In this document: positions 2,547-28,747 of the stretch, piece by piece
Position numbering within the stretch: the first letter of the stretch is position 1
Layout: each line of letters starts with the position of its first letter
DNA from: a virus
Length of the DNA: 31,057 nucleotides
Strand: one strand, 5' to 3'
Virus record (IMG/VR): IMGVR_UViG_3300035698_035445
Coordinates: 1-31,057 of that record
Made by a program: the position numbers and the translations under genes
The notes under the pieces: generated by a model
The model's database searches: none
What the model saw: only the letters and a program-made list of their open reading frames with translations
What the model was told of the DNA's origin: nothing

Positions 2547-4667
2547 TTAGGCTTCGCCTTTGAGTTTCAACGCGCCACGGTAATCCTGTTCTCGTACGCC
2601 GAAGTCGATGTAACCTCGGAACTGCACGCCCAAGGTGTTGAAGTCGGCGTCGGTTTTTTCGACTGTGGGACGATCGATGCCATTGAGGAACGCCACTTCA
2701 ATGGCAGGCAGGCGATTGGGGTCTGACAGCAGATACCAGGCTTTGAGTGAGCTGCCGGTAAAGCTGGCGTTGGAGAGATAGGACGAACTGACCACTTCGA
2801 ACTTGCCCACATGCGGGTTGGTATTGGGCTTGGCCTTATTGGCCGTGGTGGTTTCATTGACCTGCATGCTGGTCATGAGCAATTGTGCAGGCACTTTGAG
2901 GGCCGTGGGCACCAGGAGGATGGAGGCAGGGATGCCCAAGGGTCGGCCGTTGGGTTTAACCTGCTGGCCGAAGCTAATTTCAGCAGCGGTCAGGCCGTCA
3001 ACGGTCAGAGCGGTGTCGACACCCTCGAGGTAGTTTTTGTGCTCGGCAGAGAAGAATGTGTGGCTGTCAGACTGCACAGGGTTGCTGAGCCAGAGATTCC
3101 ACACGGCATCGGCAATGGATTCACCGGCGCCCATACCGATCTGGCGTGGGATGTCGGTGAAGGCGCCCATATCATCGTTGATGATCATCTGTCTTGTGAG
3201 CGCGAACATGATGCCATGGGTCTGAGCCTTCTGGCCATATTTTTGCTCAGACAGCTTGCCGTGCTTGAGTTCGCCGTCAGGTCCCACTTCTTCAAAGGTG
3301 AAGGAACCAGTCATGCGGTAGCGGCTGTGCTCCTTAAAATCGTTGACACTGGCGATCTTGGCCACCTTGCGCCAGCTGTCCTCGATGTAGGTGTAACCTT
3401 CCAACAGCATCTTGTTGGCAATATTGCTCAGAATGCCAGGCAGGCTGGTAGTGGAGAATGCAGCCTGCAACCAGCCTGCGGCATCACGACGGAAGCGTGG
3501 CAGCTGCTGCCCGCAGGCCAGCTCGCAGAATTCCTGAATACCAATACCTCGCAGCTTGTCGGCGGCTTCGAGGATCGGTTCGCTGTAAAGGGCTTCGATG
3601 CGTGTGTTGGGACAACCTGAGGCCATCAGTCCGACCGCTTCGAAGACTTGGGGCGTGGTATTACGCGGCGTGTGACGCGAGCCGCTGCCACCTGTGCCCG
3701 AAGTGTTGATGATAGGTCGTGAGGCGCGAAGGATGGCCAGTTCGGTCTTGGTTTCATCCCAACCTTCCTCAATGGCCTTGGCTTGGATGTCGGCGTGTTT
3801 GTTGGTGTCTGTCACGCAGATTTTCTGGATGGATTCGATGCGCCGAGTTTCAGCGGCGACACGTTGACGCATCTGCTGTACGGGGTCTGAAGCATCAGTG
3901 CTGGCGTGGCCATGAACCGTGGCCGACGCGTTGACCGTGGCAGGTGTTACCGGCTTGGGTGTAACGGTAGGTTGCTGCGTGTTTTGGGCAGTCCCTTCGT
4001 CATTGGGTTTGGAATCGACTTCTGCGGTGTTGGTCGTGGTCGAGGTGGTAGACGTGTTGGTCTGCTGAGTGGTCATGGACGGTGTCTCCAAAGAGAGTGA
4101 TTGAGATTGCATGGCTGCGATACGGGCAGACGTTGCGGTGTCGGCACCGCTATCGACAAACGAGATTTCTTTAAGGATGGCCTTGCGGACCACGTGAAGG
4201 GGCCCGTTAAAACTTCGACCGTTGACGGTGACGCTCTGGCCGTTGGGAATAAACTCGGCATCCACCACGGCAGCGCCGATACTCGCCTGCCACGGAAAAC
4301 CTTTGACACCGCTCTTGGCCACATCACGCGCCCATGAGGTGTCACGGCTGACGACGCCTTCGGCGATCACTTCTCCCTTCTCAATAGACACACGCTGGGT
4401 GTGACCCACGCCTTGTCTTGGGTTGTGATCGAGGCGCACGGGGATGTCCTGGCGATCAATGGCAAGGCCTTCAAGGTCCACCACGACCGGGTGTGGGAAT
4501 CCAGCGATGCGCATGACCCCGCCGGTGTAAGCCACCATGCTGAATTTCGGCGCCCCGGCCCCCGGAAGTGCTGACGCATCGTCGGCGGCCTCAATGGTGA
4601 GCGGGCATTCAAAGACCAGGTACTCAGGCTGCGTCAGCGTCTTGGTTGGCATCGTTTTTGTCGTCAA
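2547..4667 (-). CDS. Prohead protease / major capsid protein fusion
   Basis: A 706-residue polyprotein-like fusion. Residues 1 to about 185 resemble a prohead (caudoviral) protease: a His in VRLDHNPRQG, a candidate Ser in WQASIGA and the family-typical ILKEISFVDSGAD. Residues about 190-290 are a Thr/Ser/Pro-rich and helical linker that may act as scaffold. Residues about 340-706 have the character of an HK97-type major capsid protein (TGSFTFEEVGPDGELKHG, ALTRQMIINDDMGAF, C-terminal GYIDFGVREQDYRGAL). The protease would cut the linker during head maturation. The start is a TTG at 4665-4667 with GGAGG 6 nt upstream; the next ATG (4652) has no well-spaced site. It overlaps the portal gene by 44 bp, implying coupled translation. 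Confidence 0.85.
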   Translation of the reverse strand: MTTKTMPTKTLTQPEYLVFECPLTIEAADDASALPGAGAPKFSMVAYTGGVMRIAGFPHPVVVDLEGLAIDRQDIPVRLDHNPRQGVGHTQRVSIEKGEVIAEGVVSRDTSWARDVAKSGVKGFPWQASIGAAVVDAEFIPNGQSVTVNGRSFNGPLHVVRKAILKEISFVDSGADTATSARIAAMQSQSLSLETPSMTTQQTNTSTTSTTTNTAEVDSKPNDEGTAQNTQQPTVTPKPVTPATVNASATVHGHASTDASDPVQQMRQRVAAETRRIESIQKICVTDTNKHADIQAKAIEEGWDETKTELAILRASRPIINTSGTGGSGSRHTPRNTTPQVFEAVGLMASGCPNTRIEALYSEPILEAADKLRGIGIQEFCELACGQQLPRFRRDAAGWLQAAFSTTSLPGILSNIANKMLLEGYTYIEDSWRKVAKIASVNDFKEHSRYRMTGSFTFEEVGPDGELKHGKLSEQKYGQKAQTHGIMFALTRQMIINDDMGAFTDIPRQIGMGAGESIADAVWNLWLSNPVQSDSHTFFSAEHKNYLEGVDTALTVDGLTAAEISFGQQVKPNGRPLGIPASILLVPTALKVPAQLLMTSMQVNETTTANKAKPNTNPHVGKFEVVSSSYLSNASFTGSSLKAWYLLSDPNRLPAIEVAFLNGIDRPTVEKTDADFNTLGVQFRGYIDFGVREQDYRGALKLKGEA
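4559..4570 (+). repeat. CCCCCGGAAGTG repeat inside capsid gene
   Basis: An exact copy of the 12-mer also found at 2147-2158, 9367-9378 and 9927-9938. In each case it lies within a coding region at a Gly/Pro/Ala-rich spot, here in the N-terminal part of the protease domain. Confidence 0.6.
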
Positions 4668-6135
4668 GGTCGTCCTCCGTATCGTTTGGGTTGGTTGAGG
4701 GTGAGGCCTGGGATTCCGGGGATTTAGGGGGTTCCGGGGTTTCCGGGGGGGCAGGCATCAGGCCCAGCTTGTTCATGAGCGTCAGTTCTTTGGCACGCTG
4801 GTGTAATTCCACTTCCCAGTCTTTACCTTGCCGGGCATATTCAGCGGCAAGGGTTGTGGTGTTGCTGCTTAATCGTGTGGCCTGGGCATTGGCCTCTTTG
4901 GCCGGGTCCACATGCTCGGTGCCATCAAAGAACCATTGGTGGGCGATGGCAGATTGCCTGTCTAAACTCAGGACGATCTGGGCTTCATGCAGCCACGCGC
5001 TAAAAATGCGATCCAGAACCTGCTCGGCCAGATGGGCCTGCTCCACGCGGATGCTCTTGAAATAGGTCTGGTGGTCCAGACGACCTGAGGCGTAGTTGTA
5101 GCCAGCGCTGTTACCGGCGGCGACGTTAAAGGGAAGGTTTAAGCAGCGGGCGATTTCGTTGAGGATTTCGTGTTTGAATTCGGCGTAGGTGGTGGTGGGC
5201 TGCTGCGCTTCGATCTGGCCAAGCCGCCACCCGTCAGGGAGGACCGTGGCCATGCGTTTTTCAAGTGAGACCACGTCCATGGGTTCCAATGCCTGCGCTT
5301 CGCCGTTGGCAGGCGAATCAGTAAACAACACGGCAGCAAAATCCGCGGCCGTCTCTGCGGCTGCAATCACTGCCAGGGTGTAACGACGAAGCTGCGCGAA
5401 CAGTGGTAATGCAGGTGTAATCTCAGGCACACCACGATGCTGGCCAGGCCGATCACCACGGAACCAGTGAATCACCGCATCGGCAGGCACGATGTCATAC
5501 GGGGTCTGCCAAGTGCTCAGACTCCGGGGGCTTCCGGGGTCGCCAGGGTGATTCCGAAGGATGCTGTAGCTTGTGGGATTGCCATAGCCATCCAGTGTGA
5601 TGCCATCAATGTCTGTGCCGCTGGAAAAATCTGGCGACACCACGCGGTCTGCTTCGACGAGTCGAATGTCCAGACTGACGGGTGAATCAATACTTGGATT
5701 CTCGGTGAGGACGGCGAAGGCCTCGCCATCGGTACTCTTGGCCATGCGCATGGTGCGGAGTTTTTCAGGAAGGTTGACGGCACGTGCCCACTGGGTGAAG
5801 GCGACTTCCACATCGTGATTGGTCTTGTCATGACCACTGAGCAATTGCAGACGTGGTCCGGTGCCGATGCAGTCGTTGGCCAGCGTCAGAACGATGCCCT
5901 TGGCATAGCTGTTGTTGGCGACCTCGTAGCGGGCACGTTCACGCAGCTTGCGACGCACATCCTCTGAAGCAGAACTGTCGGCTGACAGCGAATCGGCCAT
6001 GGCCCAGTGGCGAGCGTTATCACGGGTGGTCTGTGCAGCGTCGTAGCGAGCCTGAATCACCCTGGGCATGCCCCCTGCGTAGCGGCGTGCCTCAGCGGGT
6101 TGCTGGTCTTTGCTTTTAAGGCGAAATGGCCACAT
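4624..6135 (-). CDS. Phage portal protein, lambda family
   Basis: The 503-residue product matches lambda-type portal proteins (the dodecameric DNA channel at the capsid vertex). It has the N-terminal segment RARYEVANNSYAKGIVLTLANDCIGTG, written here in two parts as RARYEVANNSYAKG and LANDCIGTG, then IRLVEADRV, HWFRGDRPGQHRGVPEITPA and the C-terminal NEIARCLNLPFNVAAGNSAGY with the tunnel/stem region. The frame is open to 6198; the ATG at 6133-6135 (MWPFRLKSK) is typical for the family. The C-terminal 60 residues are a Pro/Glu/Asp-rich tail encoded across several TTCCGGGG repeats (4713-4750). Terminase, small protein, portal and capsid follow the standard head-gene order. Confidence 0.9.
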   Translation of the reverse strand: MWPFRLKSKDQQPAEARRYAGGMPRVIQARYDAAQTTRDNARHWAMADSLSADSSASEDVRRKLRERARYEVANNSYAKGIVLTLANDCIGTGPRLQLLSGHDKTNHDVEVAFTQWARAVNLPEKLRTMRMAKSTDGEAFAVLTENPSIDSPVSLDIRLVEADRVVSPDFSSGTDIDGITLDGYGNPTSYSILRNHPGDPGSPRSLSTWQTPYDIVPADAVIHWFRGDRPGQHRGVPEITPALPLFAQLRRYTLAVIAAAETAADFAAVLFTDSPANGEAQALEPMDVVSLEKRMATVLPDGWRLGQIEAQQPTTTYAEFKHEILNEIARCLNLPFNVAAGNSAGYNYASGRLDHQTYFKSIRVEQAHLAEQVLDRIFSAWLHEAQIVLSLDRQSAIAHQWFFDGTEHVDPAKEANAQATRLSSNTTTLAAEYARQGKDWEVELHQRAKELTLMNKLGLMPAPPETPEPPKSPESQASPSTNPNDTEDDLDDKNDANQDADAA

Positions 6136-6228
6136 CAACGATGGGTTCCTGATGGGGATCGGGGTGGAACGATTCACGAAAAGATTGCAGACAGACACTG
6201 GAAGGGAAGCAGCGGAACTACCCCAGTT

Positions 6229-6429
6229 TCATTCTGAACTTCCGGGGGGAGATATTTTGAAGAGCTTGATGCCAAGGCCGCGTGTGCGGCTGGCCTTTTT
6301 GGATTCGAGATATTTATCGGCGGCGATCTGGTCAGGCAGACTGTGCTGTTCGACGGAGCCTTCATCGCCGCTGGCCTTGGAAGGGCCTTGGGCATTGGTC
6401 TTGATGGACTCGTCGAGTGTGTCAGTCAT
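6229..6429 (-). CDS. Small protein between terminase and portal genes
   Basis: A 66-residue protein whose second half (ADKYLESKKASRTRGLGIKL) is helical and basic. Lambda-type phages carry a short connector gene in exactly this position between terminase and portal (gpW in lambda), so a head-joining role is plausible by context; sequence alone does not show it. An overlapping minus-strand frame (6174-6395) is judged a shadow. The 3' end and the upstream gap carry TTCCGGGGG repeats. Confidence 0.55.
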   Translation of the reverse strand: MTDTLDESIKTNAQGPSKASGDEGSVEQHSLPDQIAADKYLESKKASRTRGLGIKLFKISPPGSSE

Positions 6430-6523: not shown

Positions 6524-6592
6524 ATTCATGCTTGAATTTGTTCGTATCTGGAAAATTGGATGCGCGATCGCGACGTGACCTGAGGGTCAGGC
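6524..6592 (-). pseudogene. Detached terminase 3'-end remnant (copy A)
   Basis: On the minus strand this stretch reads VTSRSRIQFSRYEQIQA then stop. The real terminase ends VISRSRIKLSRYQQNRA then stop. At DNA level the two stretches match at 57 of 69 positions by manual alignment with 8709-8777. It is therefore a diverged second copy of the terminase end, separated from the gene by the toxin-antitoxin cassette. The two copies form direct repeats around the cassette. Confidence 0.85.
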
Positions 6593-6675
6593 TGTACTAC
6601 CAAGCGAATGCAACCAATTGCATCAAATCAGAATTGATTTGTGATGAACATAAAGACATGTGTGGGAAGGGCGGT

Positions 6676-7557
6676 TTAACCGAGCAGGTGTTGCAAGGTT
6701 TCGATGAACAAATCTCGGCTCGGATTATTCTGCCAGAGTGGATGCGCACGCATTGCAAGCAAGCCTGGCGAGGTGGCATTGGCGAAGTCAGATTTTACGA
6801 GTGCTGCGCATGACTGCATCTGAGGATTGCTGGCGAAATGATTGACCAAACGGCGAACCTCCACGACATCGCCTTCGGTCATCATGGCAACGATGCGAAA
6901 GATATCCAGCGCATGGTGGCGACCCAAGTCCTTCTCCTGATCGTTGCGACGGTCACGAAAAGCGGTGAGTTTCATCAGCAGGTAAGTGAATGGATGTGGG
7001 ATTCTGATGCGAGTGGATGTGGATGTGCCATTGGAGAGTGTCCCTTCGATCTCGATCATGACCGGTGATTCTTCAAGACCCAAAGCTCCGTCGGTCGGGT
7101 GGGCGTGAAGCTGAGGTCGCGTCTTGGAAGTAGGTCTGGCACGACGGGCATCGGCCTGAATCAAAGGATATTGTCCAAGCACATCGAGTTGTGCAGTCAG
7201 TAAATCAATCTTGACACGCTGTGACCCCGTGACCACACGAGAGAACTGCAGGTATTCCGAGCCCACGACCACGCGGTAACCCAGAGCATCCAAACATTCA
7301 CGCACCGTGTCCATGGATTGCACATCTGCAACAAGCAACGCTGACAGCAGCAAGTCCAGGTCTTGTGTTGCTCGCGGCACTGGCCAATGATCTACAGGTA
7401 TCAGTGTGCGATGACGACCCGCTGCCAGGTTCAGCTGCTTTAAGTAAAGGCCATAACCTCCAGCAAGCAGCAGCCCGCCGCTCATGTTGCCAAGGCTCAT
7501 GTTGCCAAGATGGTGCAGCAGGTCTAACAGGCTGGTGCGCAGGACTTGATCGTTCAC
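6676..7557 (-). CDS. AbiEii-like nucleotidyltransferase toxin
   Basis: A 293-residue protein with the nucleotidyltransferase signature: a glycine motif LAGGYGLYLKQ (residues 31-41), the metal-binding pair D66xD68 in RATQDLDLLL, a third acidic residue in VKIDLL (about 118), and KLTAFRDRRNDQEKD (about 200), which matches the Lys-rich motif of AbiEii toxins. Such toxins transfer nucleotides to tRNA or other targets and stop growth, for example on phage infection. It overlaps the upstream antitoxin gene by 4 bp (7554-7557), so the pair is translationally coupled in antitoxin-toxin order. An in-frame tandem 15-bp duplication (7481-7510) gives LGNMS twice. The C-terminus follows phage gene borders without disrupting them. 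Confidence 0.8.
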   Translation of the reverse strand: MNDQVLRTSLLDLLHHLGNMSLGNMSGGLLLAGGYGLYLKQLNLAAGRHRTLIPVDHWPVPRATQDLDLLLSALLVADVQSMDTVRECLDALGYRVVVGSEYLQFSRVVTGSQRVKIDLLTAQLDVLGQYPLIQADARRARPTSKTRPQLHAHPTDGALGLEESPVMIEIEGTLSNGTSTSTRIRIPHPFTYLLMKLTAFRDRRNDQEKDLGRHHALDIFRIVAMMTEGDVVEVRRLVNHFASNPQMQSCAALVKSDFANATSPGLLAMRAHPLWQNNPSRDLFIETLQHLLG

Positions 7558-8606
7558 GAGGTGGTTCCGATCGTTTCAAGCAGGAGTTTTCGAATGTCCA
7601 CCGCGATGTCCTTCTGACGTTTGTCACCGCTGGCCATTTCAAGCCATGCTTGAATCGGTGAAGCGGTCAGTTTTGGACGGGGATCAAAGTACACCCGCTG
7701 ATCACTGGTCTGCATCAGTCGCAGGTTCGGGAAGATACGTGTCTCGCTGGCATCTGCGCCCAGCTGGCTTATCAACTCGGCAGGGTCTTTGCGACAGTAA
7801 CAGGAAATCACCGGTTCACCGGCATACACCCCGTACTGGGCAGCAGACCCATCTCCGGTGCGCACCACATCGTCATCCTGCCCGATCTCCTGCAGCCGAG
7901 CTTGCAGCTTGGTGTCCGACATCGCCAGCTTGCCCAGCCAGGTGGATTCGATCTTCGGCAGCTGGTAGGCCTCAAGCAACTGATTCAACACACGCTCTGG
8001 TTGAATCAAGCGGATTGATTTTGTGCTCTGACGCTCGATCACCAGATCTGATTCCAGTTGTTTAAGCACTTTGGAAACAGTACCCATGGTAAGCGACCCG
8101 CCACGACGTTTGATCGCCTCGAGAATTTCACCTACAGCATTAAACTCGGGCTCAAGCAGAAGCACTCTTGCGACCAGTGAACTGTCGCCACGATAGGCCG
8201 AACGAATCGGGGCGCTATCCGGATAACGATTGGGGTTACCTGTTTTCCAGAAGTAGAATTGACCCGGGGCCTCAATAGCGGCATTGCCGCAAAAATCCAT
8301 GGCACTGACGCCTTCATTGAGCAGCTGGCTCAGTTTTTCCTCGGTCAAATAAGGCACGATGACCATGGGTTTGCCTAACCCTGATTCCGCTGCGTAGCGT
8401 TTGACCTGATTGATGGCCAATTCAAGGGTCTGTGGCCTGGCGTCCGCCTTCAATTCAGCCACATACCGGCAGGATTGCCCTTGCCATGTAATATCCAGGA
8501 CCGCGTCGTAGCCATCCCCACGCCCACTCATGGCCACACGGATATCCATGGGCAGCACCTGTAATTGACCATTCCTGAGCATTTTTTCAAATTTAGCTTT
8601 GTTCAT
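7554..8606 (-). CDS. AbiEi-family antitoxin with nuclease-like N-terminus
   Basis: A 350-residue protein. Residues 30-75 hold D38 and E51-L-K53 (AVLDIT...YVAELK), followed by Gln67, which is the pattern of a PD-(D/E)XK nuclease-type fold. Residues about 95-150 (EGVSAMDFCGNAAIEAPG, KTGNPNRYP, RGDSSLVARVLL) are typical of the AbiEi family. Residues about 155-215 are a winged helix (TMGTVSKVLKQLESDLVI). AbiEi antitoxins counter the AbiEii toxin and repress their own promoter. The start ATG is 8604-8606. A strong promoter and a symmetric set of TTTTCC/GGAAAA sites lie directly upstream. Whether the nuclease-like site is active is unknown. Confidence 0.8.
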   Translation of the reverse strand: MNKAKFEKMLRNGQLQVLPMDIRVAMSGRGDGYDAVLDITWQGQSCRYVAELKADARPQTLELAINQVKRYAAESGLGKPMVIVPYLTEEKLSQLLNEGVSAMDFCGNAAIEAPGQFYFWKTGNPNRYPDSAPIRSAYRGDSSLVARVLLLEPEFNAVGEILEAIKRRGGSLTMGTVSKVLKQLESDLVIERQSTKSIRLIQPERVLNQLLEAYQLPKIESTWLGKLAMSDTKLQARLQEIGQDDDVVRTGDGSAAQYGVYAGEPVISCYCRKDPAELISQLGADASETRIFPNLRLMQTSDQRVYFDPRPKLTASPIQAWLEMASGDKRQKDIAVDIRKLLLETIGTTS

Positions 8607-8668
8607 TTTCCTACTTTCGACATTTTCCGCCTATGGAAAAAGTATATTCTAGGAAAATTGTACGTCAA
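8606..8668 (-). promoter_or_regulatory. AbiE promoter with symmetric four-site operator
   Basis: Minus-strand promoter: -35 TTGACG (8663-8668), 16-bp spacer, -10 TATACT (8641-8646). Overlapping it are TTTTCC at 8606-8611 and 8623-8628 and GGAAAA at 8635-8640 and 8652-8657. Each direct pair is spaced 17 bp and the set is mirror-symmetric around 8631. The arrangement fits known AbiEi autoregulation, where the antitoxin binds inverted repeats over its own promoter. Confidence 0.75.
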
Positions 8669-8708
8669 GGGATTGTTTTAAGTATTCGCTTTCGAGCTAT
8701 ACCCAGGC

Positions 8709-8777
8709 ATTCATGCCCGATTTTGTTGGTATCTGGAAAGTTTGATCCGCGATCGCGAGATGACCTGATGGTTGGGC
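8709..8777 (-). repeat. Terminase 3'-end direct repeat (copy B)
   Basis: The authentic last codons of the terminase gene. Paired with 6524-6592 in the same orientation (57 of 69 matching positions). Together they bracket the roughly 2.1-kb toxin-antitoxin cassette. Confidence 0.85.
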
Positions 8778-11044
8778 ATGTTGGCCAACGTGACGCCCTG
8801 CATGGACGCGCCCACTGCGCAACCCACCAAACAATCCAGCCAGTGATTGTCAGGCCGTGTGGGGCGCAGTTTCCATTCATCCACCGTCCGGCCCTGCGCC
8901 ATGGTCCTGATGCAATACTCTGCCGTCAGATGATCAGCCACCATGCGATGGCGATCCGATTCATGGCCATACAGCGACAGGCATCCCGGGTCGCCCATCG
9001 CCACACCCAGGCGTGCATGCACAAAGCTCTTCCAAAAATTCGTATCAATCAATGCATGACGCACCTGACGACGACCCGCTGTCTGCGGCATGCGCCAGTG
9101 CAATCCCAATCGATCGCCACGCTTGCGCTTGTACTCACTAAACGGCACACTTGATGCACCCACATATTTGCCATGACTGGGAACCAGTAACCCCGCATGC
9201 TGACTCTGCCTGCAGAACTGGTATATCACATCCGTGCTCTGGCCCCAGTTGGCATCTATCAAACAACGATCCACATGCATCTCTACCCCATCCTCACGTC
9301 GATAAGCCCGCCCCAACCGCTCAGCCGTTAGTCGTTCCAACCCCCCATAAATCTGCCCCTCAACCCCCCCCGGAAGTGCCCCCGCCCCCGGAAGCCCCGG
9401 CCCCGAAACCCCCTGAATTCCCGGTAGGTTTGGCTGGCTTAACGTCGAAGTCAGATCATTGAGCGTGAAGTAAGGCCGCTTCTGCCCCGGCCATGTCCCA
9501 TAGTCCACGACATAGCCTGTGAAGTTTTCTTCCCACGCACATAACATCCAGAACAACACACGCTGCTGCACGTCAATGAACAGTGTCAGATGGTTACAGT
9601 TCCCTGGAATCACCCCGGGCTGGTAACCGTTGGTCTTGGAGGCAATGAATTCCGGCGTCAACATCTCCTGACCCACGGCTTCGATCTTGGGTTCGTTCTG
9701 GTATTCCGCGAAAAACGCAGCCTCATCGCGGAACTTGAGGTTCATCGCATGCTGGATGGCTGAGCATTCATCCTCGTTGTACCGCTGCGGCCATGCCACG
9801 ATCACACCTGCGTCCATACTTTCACGGTTGGCCATGTAAAACGCAGTGGCTTCCTTACCATCGCCATCGTTGCGGAAAGAATCCGCTCGCAGCTGGGCAT
9901 AATGCGACCACTGCTTCTCACTTCCGCCCCCGGAAGTGGGGAACGCATACACCATCTTGGTGCGTTCACCTTGCCATTCAGGATGTTTATCGCGGTCCAG
10001 GATGTTGTCTGCCATGTCAGCAGGGCGAATGACCGTGCATGCCATCAGTCCTGCGATTTTTTTACCCGGGCCTGCCATACCCAGCACATCACCGGCAAGA
10101 ATCGCTTCACGACGCTGAGATTGCGAAGGGGACCATGCGGATTCAGTGGTCTGTGGGTCATCCACCAGCACCAATTGAGGCCGGACTACCTTGCCGTCGG
10201 CGCGGGCATAGTTCTGACCACGGATGTCAGAACCTTTCATCCCACTGCAGGAGATCACCACGCCTGAAGCGCTGCTCCCTGTGATGGTGGGCAGCACAAT
10301 CCTGTCCGATGACCAGTCGATGCGCGTGGGCTCGCCCTGGTATTTTTGGCCCTTCTGGCGATTGGTGATGCGCTCCAGGCACTGGATGGGATAAGTTACT
10401 TCGGGGAAGTCCGCCTGCAGAAGCGGATTGGTCTCCAGCCAGATTTTGATGTTCTCTAAAAGGTCACGGGCACGTTCGGCGCTGGCGGCGATCAGGCAGA
10501 CATAGGGCGTGGCACCGGTAAGGGCAGACCACAGAACGGCGGTCTGACATAGGACCGTCTTACCGCTTCCGCGCGGCATGGCCATGGCAAACAGTCCACC
10601 GGTGAGCACCGCTTTTTCGATCTTGTCGATCACACGCAGGTGATCGTCTGACCATGGCAGATAAAACACTGGCGCAAAGTACACATCGCAGAAGCGCCTG
10701 AACGATGCCTGACACTCTGCCTTGCGATGGGGGTCTGCGACAGCTGGCAATTCACCGATGTCCTGTGCCGCACGCACCAGATCTGCATTGCGCTGGGCCT
10801 GACGGGCTTTGACTTCCTCGTAGGTTAACGGCTCGCCACGGTCTTTGAGCTTGGCGTACTCCAACGTCAACCACGCGGCGTAGCGGAACAGGTCCACCGT
10901 TTTGGGTTTCTGCGGGTCGCTGATGGCAAAGCCAGCGCGCGTGCGGTGACGATGCAGTTGGCGCTCGCTGATGACCTCGCCTTGACCCACGGAATTTAGC
11001 ATCCGCGCCAGCACGGCAGGTTTGATCTGGCGCGGGTTAATCAT
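8711..11044 (-). CDS. Phage terminase large subunit (intein-free copy)
   Basis: A 777-residue packaging motor protein. Residues 157-163 are the Walker A PRGSGKT; VLVDDP near residue 293 is Walker B; LFIDVQQRVLFW and CLIDANWGQ in the C-terminal half fit the RNase-H-like nuclease domain that cuts the concatemer. This resembles the large gpA-like (lambda/GpA-type) terminases with an N-terminal extension. The frame is open to 11074; I choose the ATG at 11042-11044 because the second copy in the window starts at the same point. Two C-rich repeats with CCCCCGGAAG (9364-9395 and 9919-9938) encode Gly/Pro-rich or Gly-Ser linkers within the protein. The upstream small gene overlaps by 8 bp. Confidence 0.9.
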   Translation of the reverse strand: MINPRQIKPAVLARMLNSVGQGEVISERQLHRHRTRAGFAISDPQKPKTVDLFRYAAWLTLEYAKLKDRGEPLTYEEVKARQAQRNADLVRAAQDIGELPAVADPHRKAECQASFRRFCDVYFAPVFYLPWSDDHLRVIDKIEKAVLTGGLFAMAMPRGSGKTVLCQTAVLWSALTGATPYVCLIAASAERARDLLENIKIWLETNPLLQADFPEVTYPIQCLERITNRQKGQKYQGEPTRIDWSSDRIVLPTITGSSASGVVISCSGMKGSDIRGQNYARADGKVVRPQLVLVDDPQTTESAWSPSQSQRREAILAGDVLGMAGPGKKIAGLMACTVIRPADMADNILDRDKHPEWQGERTKMVYAFPTSGGGSEKQWSHYAQLRADSFRNDGDGKEATAFYMANRESMDAGVIVAWPQRYNEDECSAIQHAMNLKFRDEAAFFAEYQNEPKIEAVGQEMLTPEFIASKTNGYQPGVIPGNCNHLTLFIDVQQRVLFWMLCAWEENFTGYVVDYGTWPGQKRPYFTLNDLTSTLSQPNLPGIQGVSGPGLPGAGALPGGVEGQIYGGLERLTAERLGRAYRREDGVEMHVDRCLIDANWGQSTDVIYQFCRQSQHAGLLVPSHGKYVGASSVPFSEYKRKRGDRLGLHWRMPQTAGRRQVRHALIDTNFWKSFVHARLGVAMGDPGCLSLYGHESDRHRMVADHLTAEYCIRTMAQGRTVDEWKLRPTRPDNHWLDCLVGCAVGASMQGVTLANMPNHQVISRSRIKLSRYQQNRA
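9364..9395 (+). repeat. C-rich double CCCCCGGAAG repeat in terminase gene
   Basis: Two copies of CCCCCGGAAG in one C-rich stretch, in frame, encoding a Gly/Pro/Ala linker (PGAGALPGG) in the terminase nuclease half. A further copy at 9919-9938 is a perfect hairpin: CACTTCCG, a four-base loop, then CGGAAGTG. Confidence 0.65.
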
Positions 11045-11270
11045 TTTCTTGCATCCCTTCCCGGGAAAGTTCATGAATCAGATACGCCGTGTATTCCAGC
11101 AGGTTGATGGTGTCGTCAGCGCGAATCAGATCGCCAGATTCGGCGATGGCACGCACTTGTTCCGGGGGGATCTGCCGTCCAAAGGCCGAGGCCAGAATAC
11201 GAGCTGCATCGGCTACCGGAATGGCCGTGATCTTGAGTGAAGGTGATGGCTTTTTAGCGGACTGGTTCAT
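11037..11270 (-). CDS. Small terminase-partner protein
   Basis: A 77-residue protein (SLKITAIPVADAARILASAFG, then helical NLLEYTAYLIHELSREG) whose end overlaps the terminase start by 8 bp. By position it could be a terminase small subunit or DNA-recognition adaptor, but I see no clear helix-turn-helix and recognise no family. A close copy lies at 25746-25979; the two differ mainly in residues 33-46, suggesting that part faces a variable partner. The ATG is at 11268-11270. Confidence 0.6.
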   Translation of the reverse strand: MNQSAKKPSPSLKITAIPVADAARILASAFGRQIPPEQVRAIAESGDLIRADDTINLLEYTAYLIHELSREGMQEND

Positions 11271-11301
11271 GACTTTTCTCTTGAATAAACGAACTTCCCC
11301 A

Positions 11302-11391
11302 CAAGGCGATGAATCACCTTGATGTCTTTGGCAGGGTGTGGCTTCATGTGCATGTCACCTGCATGTTGCAGGTCTGACAGACATGTACATT
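11302..11391. promoter_or_regulatory. Divergent control region with two palindromes
   Basis: This 140-bp gap separates minus-strand packaging genes from plus-strand regulators. It holds CAAGG..CCTTG around GAT/ATC (11302-11321) and a perfect 7-bp inverted repeat ACCTGCA-TGT-TGCAGGT (11357-11373), extended by TGTC and GACA arms with a two-base bulge. Both are conserved at 26012-26031 and 26067-26083, where the only change in the second is inside the 3-base loop. They are likely operators; the HARE-HTH protein next door is a candidate binder (inference). Confidence 0.6.
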
Positions 11392-11410
11392 TTTTTATGG
11401 AGCCATCGGT

Positions 11411-11944
11411 ATGAAGAAGGAACAAATCAAAATCGGCCAGGTGTACACCGCCAAGGTCAGCGACAAGCTGGTGCCGGTACGCATTGAGAAGGAACATTCA
11501 GGAGGTGGTTGGGATGCCACGAATCTAAAGACCAATCGACCAGTACGAATCAAAAGCGCACAGCGGCTGAGGAACGCACTCAGCACGCACAACGAACCGG
11601 CCAAGCCAACAGACGGCGACGCGGTTCCCACGCCGAACAAAGAACCTGCTACACCGTCCAAACCACGTGCGCCCAAGGCCACCAAACCCGCCAGCACCAA
11701 ACGCACAGGCCCATCGTTGATTCAGGCTGCCATCCAGGTGCTTGGCCAGAGCAAGGAGCCCATGACCTGCACCCGGATGGTGGAAACGATCCTTGAACAA
11801 AAGCTCTGGTCCTCAACCGGTAAGACGCCAGCGCAAACGTTGTACAGCTCGATCCTTCGCGAGATTCAGAAGAAGGGCGACGAGGCGCGCTTCACCCATG
11901 TCGCCAAAGGTCAGTTTGAACTCAACACCAAGAAGGAGGCCTGA
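11411..11944 (+). CDS. HARE-HTH domain protein
   Basis: A 177-residue protein in three parts. Residues 1-55 form a compact basic N-domain (IKIGQVYTAKVSDKLVPVRI, GGGWDATNLKTNRPV). Residues 58-100 are a Pro/Lys/Thr-rich flexible linker. Residues 105-175 are a HARE-HTH winged helix (SLIQAAIQVLGQSKEPMTC, TLYSSILREIQKKGDEARF, VAKGQFEL). HARE-HTH domains occur in DNA-modification and chromatin-linked proteins and in RNA polymerase delta. Proteins of this layout are, to my knowledge, frequent in planctomycetes. It is followed after 3 bp by the 114-aa gene, and both are duplicated at 26120-27010. Confidence 0.75.
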   Translation: MKKEQIKIGQVYTAKVSDKLVPVRIEKEHSGGGWDATNLKTNRPVRIKSAQRLRNALSTHNEPAKPTDGDAVPTPNKEPATPSKPRAPKATKPASTKRTGPSLIQAAIQVLGQSKEPMTCTRMVETILEQKLWSSTGKTPAQTLYSSILREIQKKGDEARFTHVAKGQFELNTKKEA

Positions 11945-11947
11945 GCC

Positions 11948-12292
11948 ATGCCGACACGCCACCTTCATCGCAGCGTGCTCTTCGATGTGATCGATGATCA
12001 CCTGGTGCGTACCGTCATTTTTTCTGAGGGTCACCAGTACACTCACCGCTGCACGCGAGACGTATTCTGCGACACTGCCTATGCCATCGAAAAACACGCA
12101 GACAAGGGTGTGACGCTCGACGAGCTGGTTCAGGCCATGGACGCACCGCATACGCAGGTTGCCGTAGCGCTGGACTTCATGAAGGAGCATGGCTGTGTGG
12201 TCACGCGATTGCGACGCAACTATCCAGCCTCCAATGCTCTGTATGAGGATGCCATGACTGAGTTCATGTTTTTGGCTGAAGCGCCGTATTGA
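11948..12292 (+). CDS. Conserved 114-aa protein, probable winged helix
   Basis: The sequence has an N-terminal beta-rich part (SVLFDVIDDHLVRTVIF, HRCTRDVF) and a C-terminal helical segment (GVTLDELVQAMDAPHTQVAVALDFMKEHGCV) that reads like a winged helix ending in a basic wing (TRLRRNYPA). It follows the HARE-HTH gene by 3 bp and precedes a terminator, so the two form one operon. The copy at 26666-27010 is about as similar as the HARE-HTH copies. A DNA-binding partner role is inference; no named function is known to me. Confidence 0.65.
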   Translation: MPTRHLHRSVLFDVIDDHLVRTVIFSEGHQYTHRCTRDVFCDTAYAIEKHADKGVTLDELVQAMDAPHTQVAVALDFMKEHGCVVTRLRRNYPASNALYEDAMTEFMFLAEAPY

Positions 12293-12312
12293 AATCATTT
12301 TCATCCTTTCCA

Positions 12313-12340
12313 AACCTCGGCCGCGATGGCCGAGGTTTTC
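12313..12340 (+). terminator. Rho-independent terminator after the HARE-HTH operon
   Basis: A 10-bp perfect stem: AACCTCGGCC, loop GCGAT, GGCCGAGGTT, continuing into TTC. The homologous hairpin at 27034-27060 keeps the same loop and one G-T wobble pair. Confidence 0.85.
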
Positions 12341-12362
12341 TCAGTCTGGTGACACAAAATAC

Positions 12363-13008: not shown

Positions 13009-13099
13009 TCCCTCTGGAAATTCATTCGTTTAATGGCCTTGATGTTTTTGGTGTTTCATGGCTCAATGGTGTCAGACAACGAACACCAAGGAGAACACC

Positions 13100-13142
13100 A
13101 TGACCACCGACACCACCACCAACTCCCACGACACCTACCAGG
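13100..13142 (+). pseudogene. 5' stub of the small helical gene
   Basis: The first 14 codons (MTTDTTTNSHDTYQ) match the start of the intact gene at 27831-28073, with the same AAGGAG ribosome site and upstream sequence. The rest is deleted and the methyltransferase end follows in antisense. The deletion removes about 550 bp relative to the second copy, including a terminator. Confidence 0.8.
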
Positions 13143-13420
13143 ACCATGCTCTGCGGATTGACCTTTTTCACATGCCACAGGTCGGTCGCGTTGTTGGGTC
13201 CGTAAAAATGATGACCTGCACCCAGCTTCCAACCGTAGAAGCAGATTTCAAATGCCCCCATAAAATCTTTGCGGGTCAAAACAGGATGTTGCTTATCCCA
13301 GATGACGCCCTGGCTGAAGTAAAATCCCATCTTCTCCAGTGGTGCGGGGTAATTGCCCAGGTTGGCGTACCCACCCCAGATGTAGAACGAGCCGCCTGGC
13401 TTAAGCACACGTGACGCATT
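13141..13420 (-). repeat. Methyltransferase segment shared with 28420-28699
   Basis: This stretch covers the middle of the methyltransferase and aligns without gaps to 28420-28699. It is the only part of the gene that both copies keep, and its ends mark the two breakpoints. Confidence 0.85.
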
Positions 13421-24019: not shown

Positions 24020-24732
24020 CCGCGCAGCAGATGATTCCAAGGATCGTATCGCGAGCGTTGAATATTGTCGCCCGTTGCATAGGACCACTGATAAATGCAC
24101 GTGTCGTCACGACGGAACGACTCTTCAAGCCGTGTATGAAAGCCGCCATAAGTTGCCACACTGCCTTGCACCTGCATGAGTCGATACCAGTCCAGACCGT
24201 TGTCGCCGGTCGTTTCACGCGTGCCGGACAAGCCAAGTCGAAAGTTTGGTGTTATTTCCCCGGCCGCTTTTGCGAGCCTTTCAAGATACATCACTGTCGC
24301 GTCTTCTTTCATCGCCTGCAGATCAGCCCACGGCACAGGCGAGACGCCATCATCACGAATCCGCTCGGGAGCGCATTGCTCCAGTGTGATCTGATCAAAC
24401 GAAGACATTTGCGTAGACCACGACTTGTTTAGCGACGCAATATTTTCATAAACCCGCTTGAGATAATCGCGGAAGTAGGCGAGCGTTGACGGCTCGTCCT
24501 GCGTACGAATGTCCTTAAACTGCCATTCGTCCACTGCAATCGCAGACACCGTATGGTATGGCAGCGTAGCTCGCACTTCGTTCTGGATCATCGCAGCCAT
24601 GCGGGACAAGGTCTGCTCGCTGGTGATGACATCATCCGATCGCACAAGGCGACGGTCTTCACCATCAGGTATGACGTCCATCCAGGGATATAGGCGCAGC
24701 CCAATGTCGGTCGCCTCTATGTCAGCACTCAC
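23983..24732 (-). pseudogene. Glycoside hydrolase fragment (GH42-like)
   Basis: The frame of about 245 residues has no proper start or end. AVDEWQFKDIRTQDEPST, then YFRDYLKRVYENIASLNKSW resembles the region after the catalytic barrel core in GH42-like beta-galactosidases (F..YL...Y..I..LN..W). GYDGY near the end fits the same family. Upstream it runs directly out of the intein C-terminus at about 24725-24735; downstream it abuts the truncated gene at about 23985-24018. It is thus an internal piece of a larger gene, about 0.7 kb, caught between two breakpoints. Confidence 0.5.
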
Positions 24733-25753
24733 ATACCATCTTGCGCCCTGCCAGGTACAAATGCGAAGGTGAATCGACCTGAATACATCGGACAGGCACC
24801 GAGTTCACAGGCTCAATGGCCGTGATGTGCCTGGAGATGGACAAAGGTCGTGTGGCTGGGACCGGGCGAAGACGATCCTGCTTGCGCTGTAGCTTGCCTG
24901 ACCAGACACCCAATGCATGGGACGCTATGGGTACCTGCAGCGGTTTCGCAAAAGGAATGCTATAACGTTTTTCAGTCCGGCGACCCGTGGGCAGGTCAAC
25001 GCGATGAACCATCTCTTGCGTGGTCAGGATGAGAGGGTTTTGCCTGCTGTAGCGATCATGGACGCTCCACAGATGTTCAGCGTCACAGACGATGGATCCA
25101 CCATCGCTAAAGTCCACGCTGTAACATGGGTGATTGTGCATCACCTCTGTCACATGCGTCACCTGACACATGTGGCCCTGCTCATCGAACAGCCATTCAC
25201 CGATCTTGATATCGCCCATGGTGGTCCAGCCCGTGGGCGTGGCCAAGGGTGTGTCCAGCGCCAGCGCCTTACCACTTCCACGCGGCATGGCCATCGCAAA
25301 CAATCCGCCGGTGAGCACTGCTTTTTCGATCTTGTCGATCACACGAAGGTGATCATCTGACCAGGGCAGATAAAACACCGGCGCAAAGTACACATCGCAG
25401 AAGCGCCTGAACGATGCCTGGCACTCTGCCTTGCGCTGGGGATCTGCGACGGCTGGCAATTCGCCGATGTCCTGGGCCGCACGGACCAAATCAGCGTTGC
25501 GCTGGGCCTGGCGGGCTTTGACTTCCTCGTAGGTTAACGGCTCACCACGGTCTTTGAGTTTGGCGTATTCCAATGTCAGCCATGCGGCGTAGCAGAACAG
25601 GTCCACTGTTTTGGGTTTCTGCGGGTCGCTGATGGCAAAGCCAGCGCGCGTGCGGTGACGATGCAGCTGGCGCTCACTGATGACCTCGCCCTGGCCCACG
25701 GAGTTGAGCATCCGAGCCAGCACGGCAGGTTTGATCTGGCGTGGGTTAATCAT
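24722..25753 (-). pseudogene. Terminase N-terminus interrupted by intein, rest lost
   Basis: Residues 1-162 are almost identical to the terminase at 8711-11044 and stop at the P-loop PRGSGK. An intein of about 178 residues follows, then VCEC and a stop. The C-extein (Walker B and nuclease) is absent; instead a glycoside hydrolase fragment begins. The start ATG 25751-25753 matches that of the first copy. The product cannot package DNA. It is useful as evidence of the intein insertion point relative to the uninterrupted copy. Confidence 0.88.
24734..25267 (-). mobile_element. Class 3-like mini-intein at the terminase P-loop
   Basis: It begins directly after GSGK with Ala instead of Cys/Ser (ALALDTPLATPTGWTTMGDI). 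It has the B-block ending in EHLW, and an F-block Cys in VRCIQVDSPSHLYLAG. A non-nucleophilic first residue with W in block B and Cys in block F is the signature of class 3 inteins, which splice through the internal Cys. After SHALGVW, where a LAGLIDADG endonuclease would begin, only about 20 linker residues remain, so it is a mini-intein. The expected C-terminal His-Asn is missing because of the breakpoint, so splicing is dead. Confidence 0.82.
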
Positions 25754-25979
25754 TTTCTTGCACCCCTTCCCGGGAAAGTTCGTGAATCAGATACGCCGTG
25801 TATTCCAGCAGGTTGAGGGTGTCGTCGGCACGGATCAGATCGCCAGACATGGCGGCCTCGCGCACCTGGTCTTCGGTGACCTGACGTCCAAAGGCCGAGG
25901 CCAGAATACGAGCTGCATCGGCTACCGGAATGGCTGTGATCTTGAGTGAGGGCGATGGCTTTTTGGAAGATTGGTTCAT
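25746..25979 (-). CDS. Small terminase-partner protein, copy 2
   Basis: A 77-residue copy of the gene at 11037-11270. Most residues are the same; RQVTEDQVREAAMSGD replaces RQIPPEQVRAIAESGD. It overlaps the interrupted terminase start by 8 bp. The ATG is 25977-25979. Possibly still expressed although its partner is broken. Confidence 0.6.
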   Translation of the reverse strand: MNQSSKKPSPSLKITAIPVADAARILASAFGRQVTEDQVREAAMSGDLIRADDTLNLLEYTAYLIHELSREGVQEND

Positions 25980-26011
25980 GGGTTTTCTCTCTGATTAAAC
26001 GAACTTCCCCA

Positions 26012-26101
26012 CAAGGCGATGAATCACCTTGATGTCGTTGGCAGGGTGTGGCTTCATGTGCATGTCACCTGCACGTTGCAGGTCTGACAGACATGTACAT
26101 T
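26012..26101. promoter_or_regulatory. Divergent control region, copy 2
   Basis: Keeps both palindromes of copy 1: CAAGG..CCTTG (26012-26031) and ACCTGCA-CGT-TGCAGGT (26067-26083). The arms are unchanged and only a loop base differs, which argues for selection on the arms. Confidence 0.6.
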
Positions 26102-26119
26102 TTTTTTGGAGCCAACGGT

Positions 26120-26662
26120 ATGAAGAAAGAACAGATCAAAATCGGCCAGGTGTACACCGCCAAAGTCAGCGACAAGCTGGTGCCGGTACGCATTGAAAAG
26201 GAACATTCAGGAGGCGGATGGGACGCGACGAATTTAAAGACCAACAGACCGGTGAGAATCAAAAGTGCACAGCGGCTGAGGAACGCGCTCACCCATCGCG
26301 ACGAAACCACCAAGCCAGCCGATGGCGACGCGGTGCCCACGCCGACCAAAGAACCTGATGCGCCATCGAAGCCACGTACGCCCAAGGCTGCTAAACCCGC
26401 CAGCACCAAACGCACCGGCCCATCGCTGATCCAGGCCGCCATCCAGGTGCTTGGCCAGAACAAAGAACCCATGACCTGCACGCAGATGGTTGAATCGATC
26501 CTCCAGCAGAAGCTCTGGTCCTCAACCGGTAAGACCCCTGCCCAAACTTTGTACAGCTCGATTCTTAGAGAGCTGCAGAAGCACGGCGACCAGGCACGCT
26601 TCATCCACGCCGCCAAAGGCCAATTCCAATTGAACGCGAACGCAGCCAAGAAGGAAGCCTGA
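26120..26662 (+). CDS. HARE-HTH domain protein, copy 2
   Basis: A 180-residue paralogue of 11411-11944. N-domain and HARE-HTH are nearly unchanged; most differences lie in the Pro/Lys linker, and the C-terminus has three extra residues (NAA). The frame is open to 26048, but the homologous ATG 26120 is used. Conservation of two intact copies while neighbouring genes are broken suggests recent duplication or continued function. Confidence 0.75.
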   Translation: MKKEQIKIGQVYTAKVSDKLVPVRIEKEHSGGGWDATNLKTNRPVRIKSAQRLRNALTHRDETTKPADGDAVPTPTKEPDAPSKPRTPKAAKPASTKRTGPSLIQAAIQVLGQNKEPMTCTQMVESILQQKLWSSTGKTPAQTLYSSILRELQKHGDQARFIHAAKGQFQLNANAAKKEA

Positions 26663-26665
26663 ACC

Positions 26666-27010
26666 ATGACGACCCGCTCTCGAGAAAAAAGCGTGCTGTT
26701 CGACGTCCTCGACGACCACCTGGTCCGCACCGTGGTCTTCGCTGATGGGCGCAAATACCAGCACCGCTGTACACGCGACATCTTCCGCGATACCGCCTAC
26801 ACCATCGAAGAACAGGCGGCTGGCGGCGTGACCCTGTACGAACTGGTCAGGCTCATGGACGCGCCATACACCCAGGTGGCCGTGGCGCTGGATTTCATGA
26901 AAGAGCATGGTTGCGTGGAAGTCCGGCATCGGCGGACTTACGCTGCCTCCAACTTTGTGTATGAAGATGCCATGAGCCAGTACATGTATTTGGCGGAAGC
27001 CCCTTACTGA
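26666..27010 (+). CDS. Conserved 114-aa protein, copy 2
   Basis: Paralogue of 11948-12292 with the same length. The first ten residues and the wing (VEVRHRRTYAA) vary; the helix with TQVAVALDFMKEHGCV is identical. It is 3 bp after the HARE-HTH gene and before a terminator, as in copy 1. Confidence 0.65.
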   Translation: MTTRSREKSVLFDVLDDHLVRTVVFADGRKYQHRCTRDIFRDTAYTIEEQAAGGVTLYELVRLMDAPYTQVAVALDFMKEHGCVEVRHRRTYAASNFVYEDAMSQYMYLAEAPY

Positions 27011-27033
27011 AACCATCGATTAACCCTTTCAAT

Positions 27034-27060
27034 CACCTCGGCCGCGATGGTCGAGGTTTT
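27034..27060 (+). terminator. Terminator, copy 2
   Basis: ACCTCGGCC, loop GCGAT, GGTCGAGGT, then TTT. One G-T wobble replaces the perfect pair of copy 1; the loop is unchanged. Confidence 0.8.
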
Positions 27061-27082
27061 CTCAGTCATAGATTCAAGCAAG

Positions 27083-27377: not shown

Positions 27378-27764
27378 ATGAAGACGCCGCTGTTTTTAGA
27401 CTTGGACCAGACCCTTCGTCTGCACCGTAGTCTCATCCAAACCTATGGTGGAACGGATGGCACCCGTGACGTAGGCCTGCTTCAGTCAGCCATCGCCATG
27501 CCACAAGCGGCATATGGTGGTGCGTATCTGCATGAAGACCTCTTTGGAATGGCCGCAGCGTACCTCTATCACATCGTGCAAAATCACGCGTTCCTGGATG
27601 GCAACAAACGTACCGGTGCAGCTGCTGCCATCGTGTTCCTTGCGCTCAATGACGTTCATATCCACAACGACGAACAAGGACTTGTCGACCTCACTTTGGA
27701 GGTCGCTACAGGCATAGCAGACAAATCTCAGATTGCTGCATTTTTTCGCGCTCGAGTCGTTTAA
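27378..27764 (+). CDS. doc: Doc (Fic-fold) toxin
   Basis: A 128-residue Doc protein with the full Fic motif HAFLDGNKRTG (H70, D74, N76, K77, R78). In P1 Doc this site phosphorylates EF-Tu and stops translation. The ATG 27378-27380 lies 3 bp after the antitoxin stop; a TTG at 27375 is less likely. The stop codon lies in CGTTTAA (27758-27764), the exact point where similarity to copy 1 resumes. Confidence 0.88.
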   Translation: MKTPLFLDLDQTLRLHRSLIQTYGGTDGTRDVGLLQSAIAMPQAAYGGAYLHEDLFGMAAAYLYHIVQNHAFLDGNKRTGAAAAIVFLALNDVHIHNDEQGLVDLTLEVATGIADKSQIAAFFRARVV

Positions 27765-27876
27765 TGGCCTTGATGTTTCCGGTGTTTCATGGCTCAATGG
27801 TGTCAGACAACGAACACCAAGGAGAACACCATGACCACCGACACCACCACTACCAACTCCCACGACACCTACCAGG
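27758..27876 (+). repeat. Right border repeat of the toxin-antitoxin slot
   Basis: Matches 13027-13142 from CGTTTAATGGCC through the leader and first codons of the small helical gene. In copy 1 the repeat therefore begins with the last codons of doc, although doc itself is not there. Confidence 0.85.
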
Positions 27877-28073
27877 CCCGAGCCAACGACATCGCCCGCC
27901 TGATGGATGTCCTGCAGATGGAACTGGCCAAGCACACCCAGGCCGCCACCACGAAAACCAAATGCTGGGGCGAGGCCCAAGAGCTTGGCAAGGTCCGCAG
28001 CGACCTGATCGACCTGGTGGGATTCATCAGCGGCTTCGACCGTCAGAACATCGAAGACTTTCTGGCCGAATGA
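27831..28073 (+). CDS. Small helical protein, unknown
   Basis: An 80-residue protein: Thr-rich start, then helices DIARLMDVLQMELAKH, and LGKVRSDLIDLVGFISGF, then EDFLAE. AAGGAG precedes ATG 27831. I associate similar short proteins with planctomycete genomes, but the function is unknown. It is intact here and reduced to a 14-codon stub at 13100-13142. A terminator follows. Confidence 0.6.
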   Translation: MTTDTTTTNSHDTYQARANDIARLMDVLQMELAKHTQAATTKTKCWGEAQELGKVRSDLIDLVGFISGFDRQNIEDFLAE

Positions 28074-28117
28074 CCACCAACTCATAGGGCTTCCATCAAC
28101 CATGACCATGCATGACA

Positions 28118-28747
28118 TCACTTTGTCTCTCCCGCACCGACCCCGGCCAACTCGGCTGGGGTTTTCTCTGGCATGTCAGCGCTCGCCTCGCCCCCTGCAC
28201 CGATCCGCTGAGCCTTCTTGCCGGTAAACGCTTCCCACCTTTGCACAATCACATCGCAGTACGCCTGATCCAGTTCCATCAGGAACGCACGACGACCAGT
28301 CTGCTCACATCCCATGAGTGTTGAGCCACTACCGCCAAAGAGGTCTAGGACATTCTCGTCAGGCTTGCTGGAATACTGAATGGCCTTCACTGCCAGTTCC
28401 ACGGGCTTCTCGGTCAGGTGGACCATGCTCTGCGGATTGACCTTCTTCACGTGCCACAGGTCCGTCGCGTTGTTGGGTCCGTAAAAATGATGACCAGCGC
28501 CCAGCTTCCAACCGTAGAAGCAGATCTCAAATGCCCCCATAAAATCTTTTCTTGTGAGGACCGGATGCTGCTTGTCCCAGATGACACCCTGGCTGAAATA
28601 AAAGCCCATCTTCTCCAGAGGCGCTGGGTAGTTGCCCAGGTTGGCATACCCGCCCCAGATGTAGAACGAGCCGCCAGGCTTAAGCACACGTGACGCATTG
28701 CGACGTGCCTTGGTCTTGAATTGAATCTGTCTTGTCACGGTAGTCAT
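28118..28747 (-). pseudogene. DNA methyltransferase C-terminal half
   Basis: From NASRVLKPGGSFYIWGG on, this matches the enzyme at 13022-14284 and continues where that one breaks: HLTEKPVELAVKAIQYSS, the SAM-binding DLFGGSGST, and EQTGRRAFLMELD. The ParB domain and catalytic DPPY are missing. The first 16 residues (MTTVTRQIQFKTKARR) are unrelated and may be the start of a gene that normally follows the recombinase. The breakpoint is at 28699-28700. Its ATG overlaps the recombinase stop by 4 bp, so a fused product could still be made. Confidence 0.8.
28141..28165 (+). terminator. Plus-strand terminator
   Basis: CCCCGGCC, loop AACTC, GGCTGGGG, then TTTT. It ends transcripts of the small helical gene and lies inside the 3' end of the opposing methyltransferase gene. 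Confidence 0.7.

Follow-up and report, generated by a model that had tools for sequence, protein, structure and literature searches.

The window analysed here is a complete IMG/VR record of 31,057 bases. It carries a pair of AbiE-type genes between the large terminase gene and the portal gene, and this pair lies between two versions of the terminase 3' end. One version (tail B) is joined to the body of the terminase gene, and the other (tail A) lies detached on the portal side. The question raised by this locus is how the second end came about, and whether it marks an element that brings along a separate version of its target gene's end.

Two copies of the terminase 3' end and the genes between them

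The features of the region are listed in Table 1. Tail A and tail B were identical at 57 of 69 positions and were spaced by 2185 nt, which confirmed the two copies that had been described from the sequence. Their local alignment scored 45, far above the maximum of 15 obtained with shuffled sequences. The core pattern of the repeat occurred at two places only within the window, namely in the two tails, and had no match in 100 shuffles. Gapped extension downstream revealed no further similarity between the tails, and the similarity stopped near the borders given in Table 1. A longer copy, proposed by gapped upstream extension of tail A against the terminase, was unconvincing and was equalled by 3–6% of shuffles. 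It had also been pointed out that both tails still read to a stop codon. This is literally true, but about 11 random changes would leave the tail open with P = 0.55, so that the open frame of tail A has little meaning.

Table 1. Features of the terminase-portal region of the window
Feature	Position	Strand	Evidence
Portal protein (lambda family)	4624..6198	-	Pfam Phage_portal_2, E=1.3e-53
Conserved 66-aa protein encoded before the portal gene; marks the right-hand side of the cargo site	6229..6429	-	Found between terminase and portal in most relatives
Tail A, second copy of the terminase 3' end, predicted to be decayed and non-coding	6524..6592	-	Codon and motif comparison
Spacer between AbiEii and tail A	6593..6675	-	No detectable homologue
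AbiEii-like nucleotidyltransferase toxin, 293 aa	6676..7557	-	Pfam AbiEii, E=0.0014, below cut-off
AbiEi-like antitoxin, 350 aa, divergent	7554..8606	-	Alignment by tblastn with plasmid genes annotated as AbiEi, best E=7e-16
Putative AbiE promoter/operator region	8605..8658	-	24-nt inverted repeat, 75% complementary, 6-nt loop
Tail B, predicted functional terminase 3' end, joined to the gene body	8709..8777	-	Conserved RxRIKLSxxQ motif retained
Large terminase (TerL, GpA-type), complete, 787 aa	8711..11074	-	Pfam GpA_nuclease, E=1.1e-22

The only genes between the two tails were those of AbiEi and AbiEii. Both are on the same strand with the antitoxin gene first, the start of AbiEii overlaps the stop of AbiEi by 4 nt, and 83 nt separate AbiEii from tail A. 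The predicted AbiE-type pair directly behind the terminase gene, between two versions of its end, was thus supported. The antitoxin had no AbiEi match in the Pfam, NCBIfam and PADLOC models, and its match to HTH_Crp_2 was weak (E=0.04). AbiEii scored 19 bits against PF08843, for which the cut-off is 22.5. Because AbiEi is unrecognised by the HMM libraries and AbiEii falls under the Pfam cut-off, the assignment to AbiE is based on homologues. PF08843 was matched by 10 of 18 AbiEii homologues (best E value 4.2e-8), and the motifs GG, R..DxD and KLxAFxDR were present in AbiEii and mostly invariant across the 18. Motif IV (+DxxD) was not found in its strict form. The pairing of antitoxin and toxin recurred in 17 further genome loci and in the prophage L083 described below. 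Searches of viral contigs with the AbiEi and AbiEii proteins, as single sequences and as two-row alignments, found no relative, and a search of phage records for AbiEi found none. Structure prediction of both proteins from two-row alignments was uninformative (mean pLDDT 35–38).

Comparison with chromosomal AbiE pairs showed similarity between their upstream regions and the window, starting at about position 8669 and running inward. The cassette therefore came with a predicted promoter of its own and starts no more than about 42 nt from the end of the terminase gene. The inverted repeat in this region is of the kind expected if AbiEi represses its own operon. The original prediction had further noted that the cassette lacks the TTCCGGGG repeats of the flanking phage DNA. 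The absence is real but without significance (P(0) = 0.26 at an expectation of 1.4), and TTCCGGGG-free gaps of 2.6–4.2 kb occur elsewhere in the window.

Other parts of the contig were doubled. A second, partial terminase (24722–25753, minus strand) covers residues 2–180 at 95% identity, with no C-terminal terminase part behind it, and is broken at the Walker A motif (GSGK) by an apparent mini-intein (ALALDTPLATPTG...HLYLAGRKMVCEC). The small terminase region is present twice at 85–95% (10556–12346 and 25265–27067). Pieces of a DNA methyltransferase gene are also present twice, within the same range of identity (13026–13420 and 27757–28699), and these copies are truncated at opposite ends. The doubled regions represent either two related prophages joined together or an assembly mixture. 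The contig also encodes a large serine recombinase (CcrB/XisF-like; 28744–30312, minus strand). The cassette itself contains no integrase, as had been stated, but the contig is not integrase-free, because this recombinase is probably the phage integrase.

Codon and motif comparison of the two tails

Codon-by-codon comparison of tail A with tail B showed 2 synonymous and 8 non-synonymous changes, and the rate of change was 0.19 at each of the three codon positions. If tail B changed at random, 25% of the changes would be expected to be synonymous. The second terminase fragment (24722–25753), compared with the main terminase over 165 codons, had 35 synonymous and 5 non-synonymous changes, and the two ratios differed in a Fisher test (2:8 against 35:5, P = 9e-5). 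A comparison set was formed by 146 pairs of real terminase ends of 80–86% identity, which are not independent of one another. The non-synonymous share was at most 0.62 throughout these pairs, and in none of the 146 were 7 or more non-synonymous codons accompanied by 2 or fewer synonymous ones.

The conserved motif RxRIKLSxxQ was affected as well. Where tail B has K, L and Q, tail A has Q, F and E; among 123 relatives, this Q and this E occurred in none and the F in 16. The terminase tail closest to tail A was tail B, and other tails resembled tail A less. An exact search of IMG/VR for tail A or tail B returned no match.

From the pattern of codon changes and the motif residues, tail B is judged to be the end under selection. 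Tail A bears no sign of selection and is read from the same comparison as a decayed copy, not as an alternative working end of the gene. It had been proposed that recombination between the repeats would remove the cassette and leave a complete terminase ending in tail A. The product of such an excision would carry substitutions at conserved positions.

The terminase-portal junction in related prophages

The window's terminase falls into a family found in phages and prophages of Planctomycetota, mainly those of Phycisphaerae. The family comprised 384 viral stretches and 133 genome stretches, and it was found in 149 of 397 genomes of the class Phycisphaerae; relatives in Phycisphaerae prophages were 77–80% identical to the terminase of the window. 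A single complete planctomycete chromosome, CP087563, contains some ten related prophages (L092–L098 and L104–L108) whose terminases are of this family; in some of them the terminase gene is interrupted, probably by inteins.

In most relatives the interval between terminase and portal contained the 66-aa gene alone, often preceded by a zinc-ribbon gene of 57–63 aa. In many relatives, among them L069, L078, L032, L011 and L005, this CxxC gene lies just after the terminase stop or overlaps it; the window is without it. Among 142 relatives with both ends, the gap from the terminase to the 66-aa gene ranged from 57 to 4610 nt and reached at least 500 nt in 31, some of these loci being near-duplicates. 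The search of related phages for genes at this point, which had been suggested as a check, thus found inserted genes. Related phages with empty and with filled sites could be paired (L039 with L040; L032 with L006; L069 or L078 with L058 or L061). In filled sites the insert began either immediately after the terminase stop codon or close to where the zinc-ribbon gene ends.

Eleven of the 32 filled sites (the 31 relatives and the window) carried AbiE, of at least four types and in both orientations; the window and L083 are among the eleven. The pairs were reversed in L058, L116, L117, L154 and L024 (the toxin gene of L024 being read by eye) and forward in L064 and L073. The AbiEii profile of the window gave no full-length match to the AbiEii of L058, L064, L073 and L116, with only a short stretch around DxD aligned, and the AbiEi profile did not match the other AbiE families found at the junction. 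In L061 and L062 the antitoxin is kept and the toxin is cut after codon 29, which gives an antitoxin-only derivative beside the intact pairs of the L058 type. The cargo of L006 consisted of HipA and a helix-turn-helix gene. No second terminase end was found in any of the relatives examined, those with filled sites included. A tail-like match in L073 was weak, lay inside another gene and was no better than shuffles.

An unbiased sample of 101 genomes was searched with the AbiEii model, counting hits within 2.5 kb behind a terminase of the window's family. Three of the 67 terminases had AbiEii just behind them, where 0.044 were expected (P = 1.4e-5). L223 and L224 were of the L024 kind, with AbiE cleanly placed between terminase and portal; the remaining case, L225, was more distant and rearranged, and L226 was a further, more distant case. 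The junction is a recurrent AbiE site and is enriched in toxin-antitoxin cargo.

A homologous AbiE pair was present in L083, a Phycisphaeraceae prophage with a terminase 78% identical to that of the window, at the same terminase-portal place and in the same direction. It matched the window at 67–68% in AbiEii and at 73% in the C-terminal part of AbiEi, and the N-terminal domain of AbiEi was much diverged. In the better-conserved parts of the pair, the window and L083 were mutual nearest relatives, and trees supported a common ancestry of the two insertions weakly. In the protein tree of the terminase, the nearest relative of the window was L004; because L004 has no AbiE, the window and L083 could represent separate acquisitions. 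No terminase end was present between AbiEii and the 66-aa gene of L083. The L083 phage and the window differ by 25–30% in DNA, and tail A differs from tail B by 17%; it is possible that L083 once had a tail copy that has since been lost or outlived.

Strong matches to the AbiE pair numbered 18 in the 397 Phycisphaerae genomes. At the three chromosomal loci that were read in detail, the neighbours were not of phage type but polA-like, gcvP-like or metabolic genes, and the 1.5-kb flanks of the remaining loci contained no terminase of the window's type. By these sequence matches, the pair is a common chromosomal module in Phycisphaerae.

Origin of the cassette and of the second tail

The AbiE pair is probably a moron at a reused junction, and tail A a one-off duplication scar. 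An AbiE pair with its own promoter and operator would have been inserted directly behind the terminase, at the junction with the 66-aa gene and the portal. In the lineage of the window, a stretch of about 70 bp at the 3' end of the terminase gene was duplicated. The simplest route would be an illegitimate recombination event within the old terminase end that formed the right-hand junction of the cassette; insertion of the cassette with target duplication would be an alternative route. The portal-side copy then decayed freely, and the copy attached to the gene stayed under selection. On this account the duplication arose with the cassette. By the known biology of AbiE (PMC3985639), the pair most likely acts as other AbiE pairs do: AbiEi would repress the operon and counteract AbiEii, and the nucleotidyltransferase AbiEii would halt growth when the balance is disturbed. 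The pair may serve to abort infections by rival phages or to stabilise the prophage.

Genomic islands in tRNA genes restore the end of the tRNA gene on integration. The original prediction saw the locus in these terms; the cassette would then be a mobile element that enters the terminase gene by recombination at its 3' end and supplies a version of that end itself. The geometry fits, with direct repeats at both edges, two versions of the gene end flanking the insert and the terminase whole, and the AbiE pair clearly moves between genomes. However, the second end of the window is decayed, it is absent from the homologous cassette of L083 and from the other filled sites examined, the cassette has no integrase, and the chromosomal pairs read in detail adjoin other genes. 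This explanation is largely refuted and very improbable. A related idea is that AbiE modules travel on segments including the terminase 3' end, which would act as a homology arm for integrase-free cargo swaps, with tail A as a trace. It would, if true, explain the frequent reuse of the junction, and it is given little credence.

The same structure would result from an exchange in which a segment with terminase and AbiE took the place of the old terminase. Its left border would have formed by homologous recombination and its right border by an illegitimate join within the end of the old gene, leaving tail A as a remnant of that gene. The family is mosaic, with different closest relatives for terminase (L004) and portal, and the contig holds a second copy of the terminase region at 85% identity. 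Two working alleles, however, predict mostly synonymous changes, and 2 of 10 were seen; moreover, the old end must have been nearly identical to the new one, and among terminase tails the best match to tail A is tail B. Such an exchange is considered unlikely. It is possible, though doubtful, that AbiE was already present, as in L083, and that the tail was copied afterwards by replication slippage or repair. L083 does carry AbiE without a tail copy, although the two phages have diverged more than the two tails. Against a later copy, the position of tail A coincides with the right-hand edge of the cassette, as expected of an insertion scar, and the trees support a shared ancestry of the insertions of L083 and the window weakly.

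The reading of the pair as a moron at a reused junction can be compared with known systems. Anti-phage hotspots of P2-like and P4-like phages are stretches of 1–5 kb with fast gene turnover between two conserved phage genes, and the P2 hotspot of E. coli lies between gpA and the portal gene gpQ, next to cos (Rousset et al. 2022, PMC9122126). These stretches contain one or more small defence or toxin-antitoxin systems. The present junction likewise has small cargo of predicted defence or toxin-antitoxin type between conserved genes, one of which, as in P2, is the portal gene. It differs in lying between the large terminase and the 66-aa gene with the portal, in Phycisphaerae prophages. A cargo hotspot between conserved phage genes is thus already known from P2-type phages, and the present place is new: the open papers searched held no report on the terminase-portal junction of planctomycete prophages, most subscription journals being outside the scope of the search.

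The COG4849 form of the AbiE toxin has a KLxAaxxR motif (Dy et al. 2014, PMC3985639). Like type IV AbiE systems, the pair of the window has the antitoxin first, overlapping genes, a predicted nucleotidyltransferase toxin with DxD and KLxAaxxR, and an inverted repeat at the promoter. Unlike them, it has an antitoxin missed by AbiEi models and a toxin under the Pfam cut-off, with longer spacing between motifs I and II and no strict motif IV. The pair is probably nearest to the COG4861–COG4849 branch, a putative placement.

The claimed new kind of integration, by islands in a phage packaging gene, is removed. It is replaced by the picture of a cargo site that lies between terminase and portal in prophages of a little-studied phylum, and at which unrelated AbiE pairs have arrived several times and in both orientations. 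The junction is a place to seek defence systems missed by current models, such as the AbiEi variant of the window, which none of three HMM libraries recognised as AbiEi. It also raises the question of why AbiE in particular is favoured beside packaging genes.
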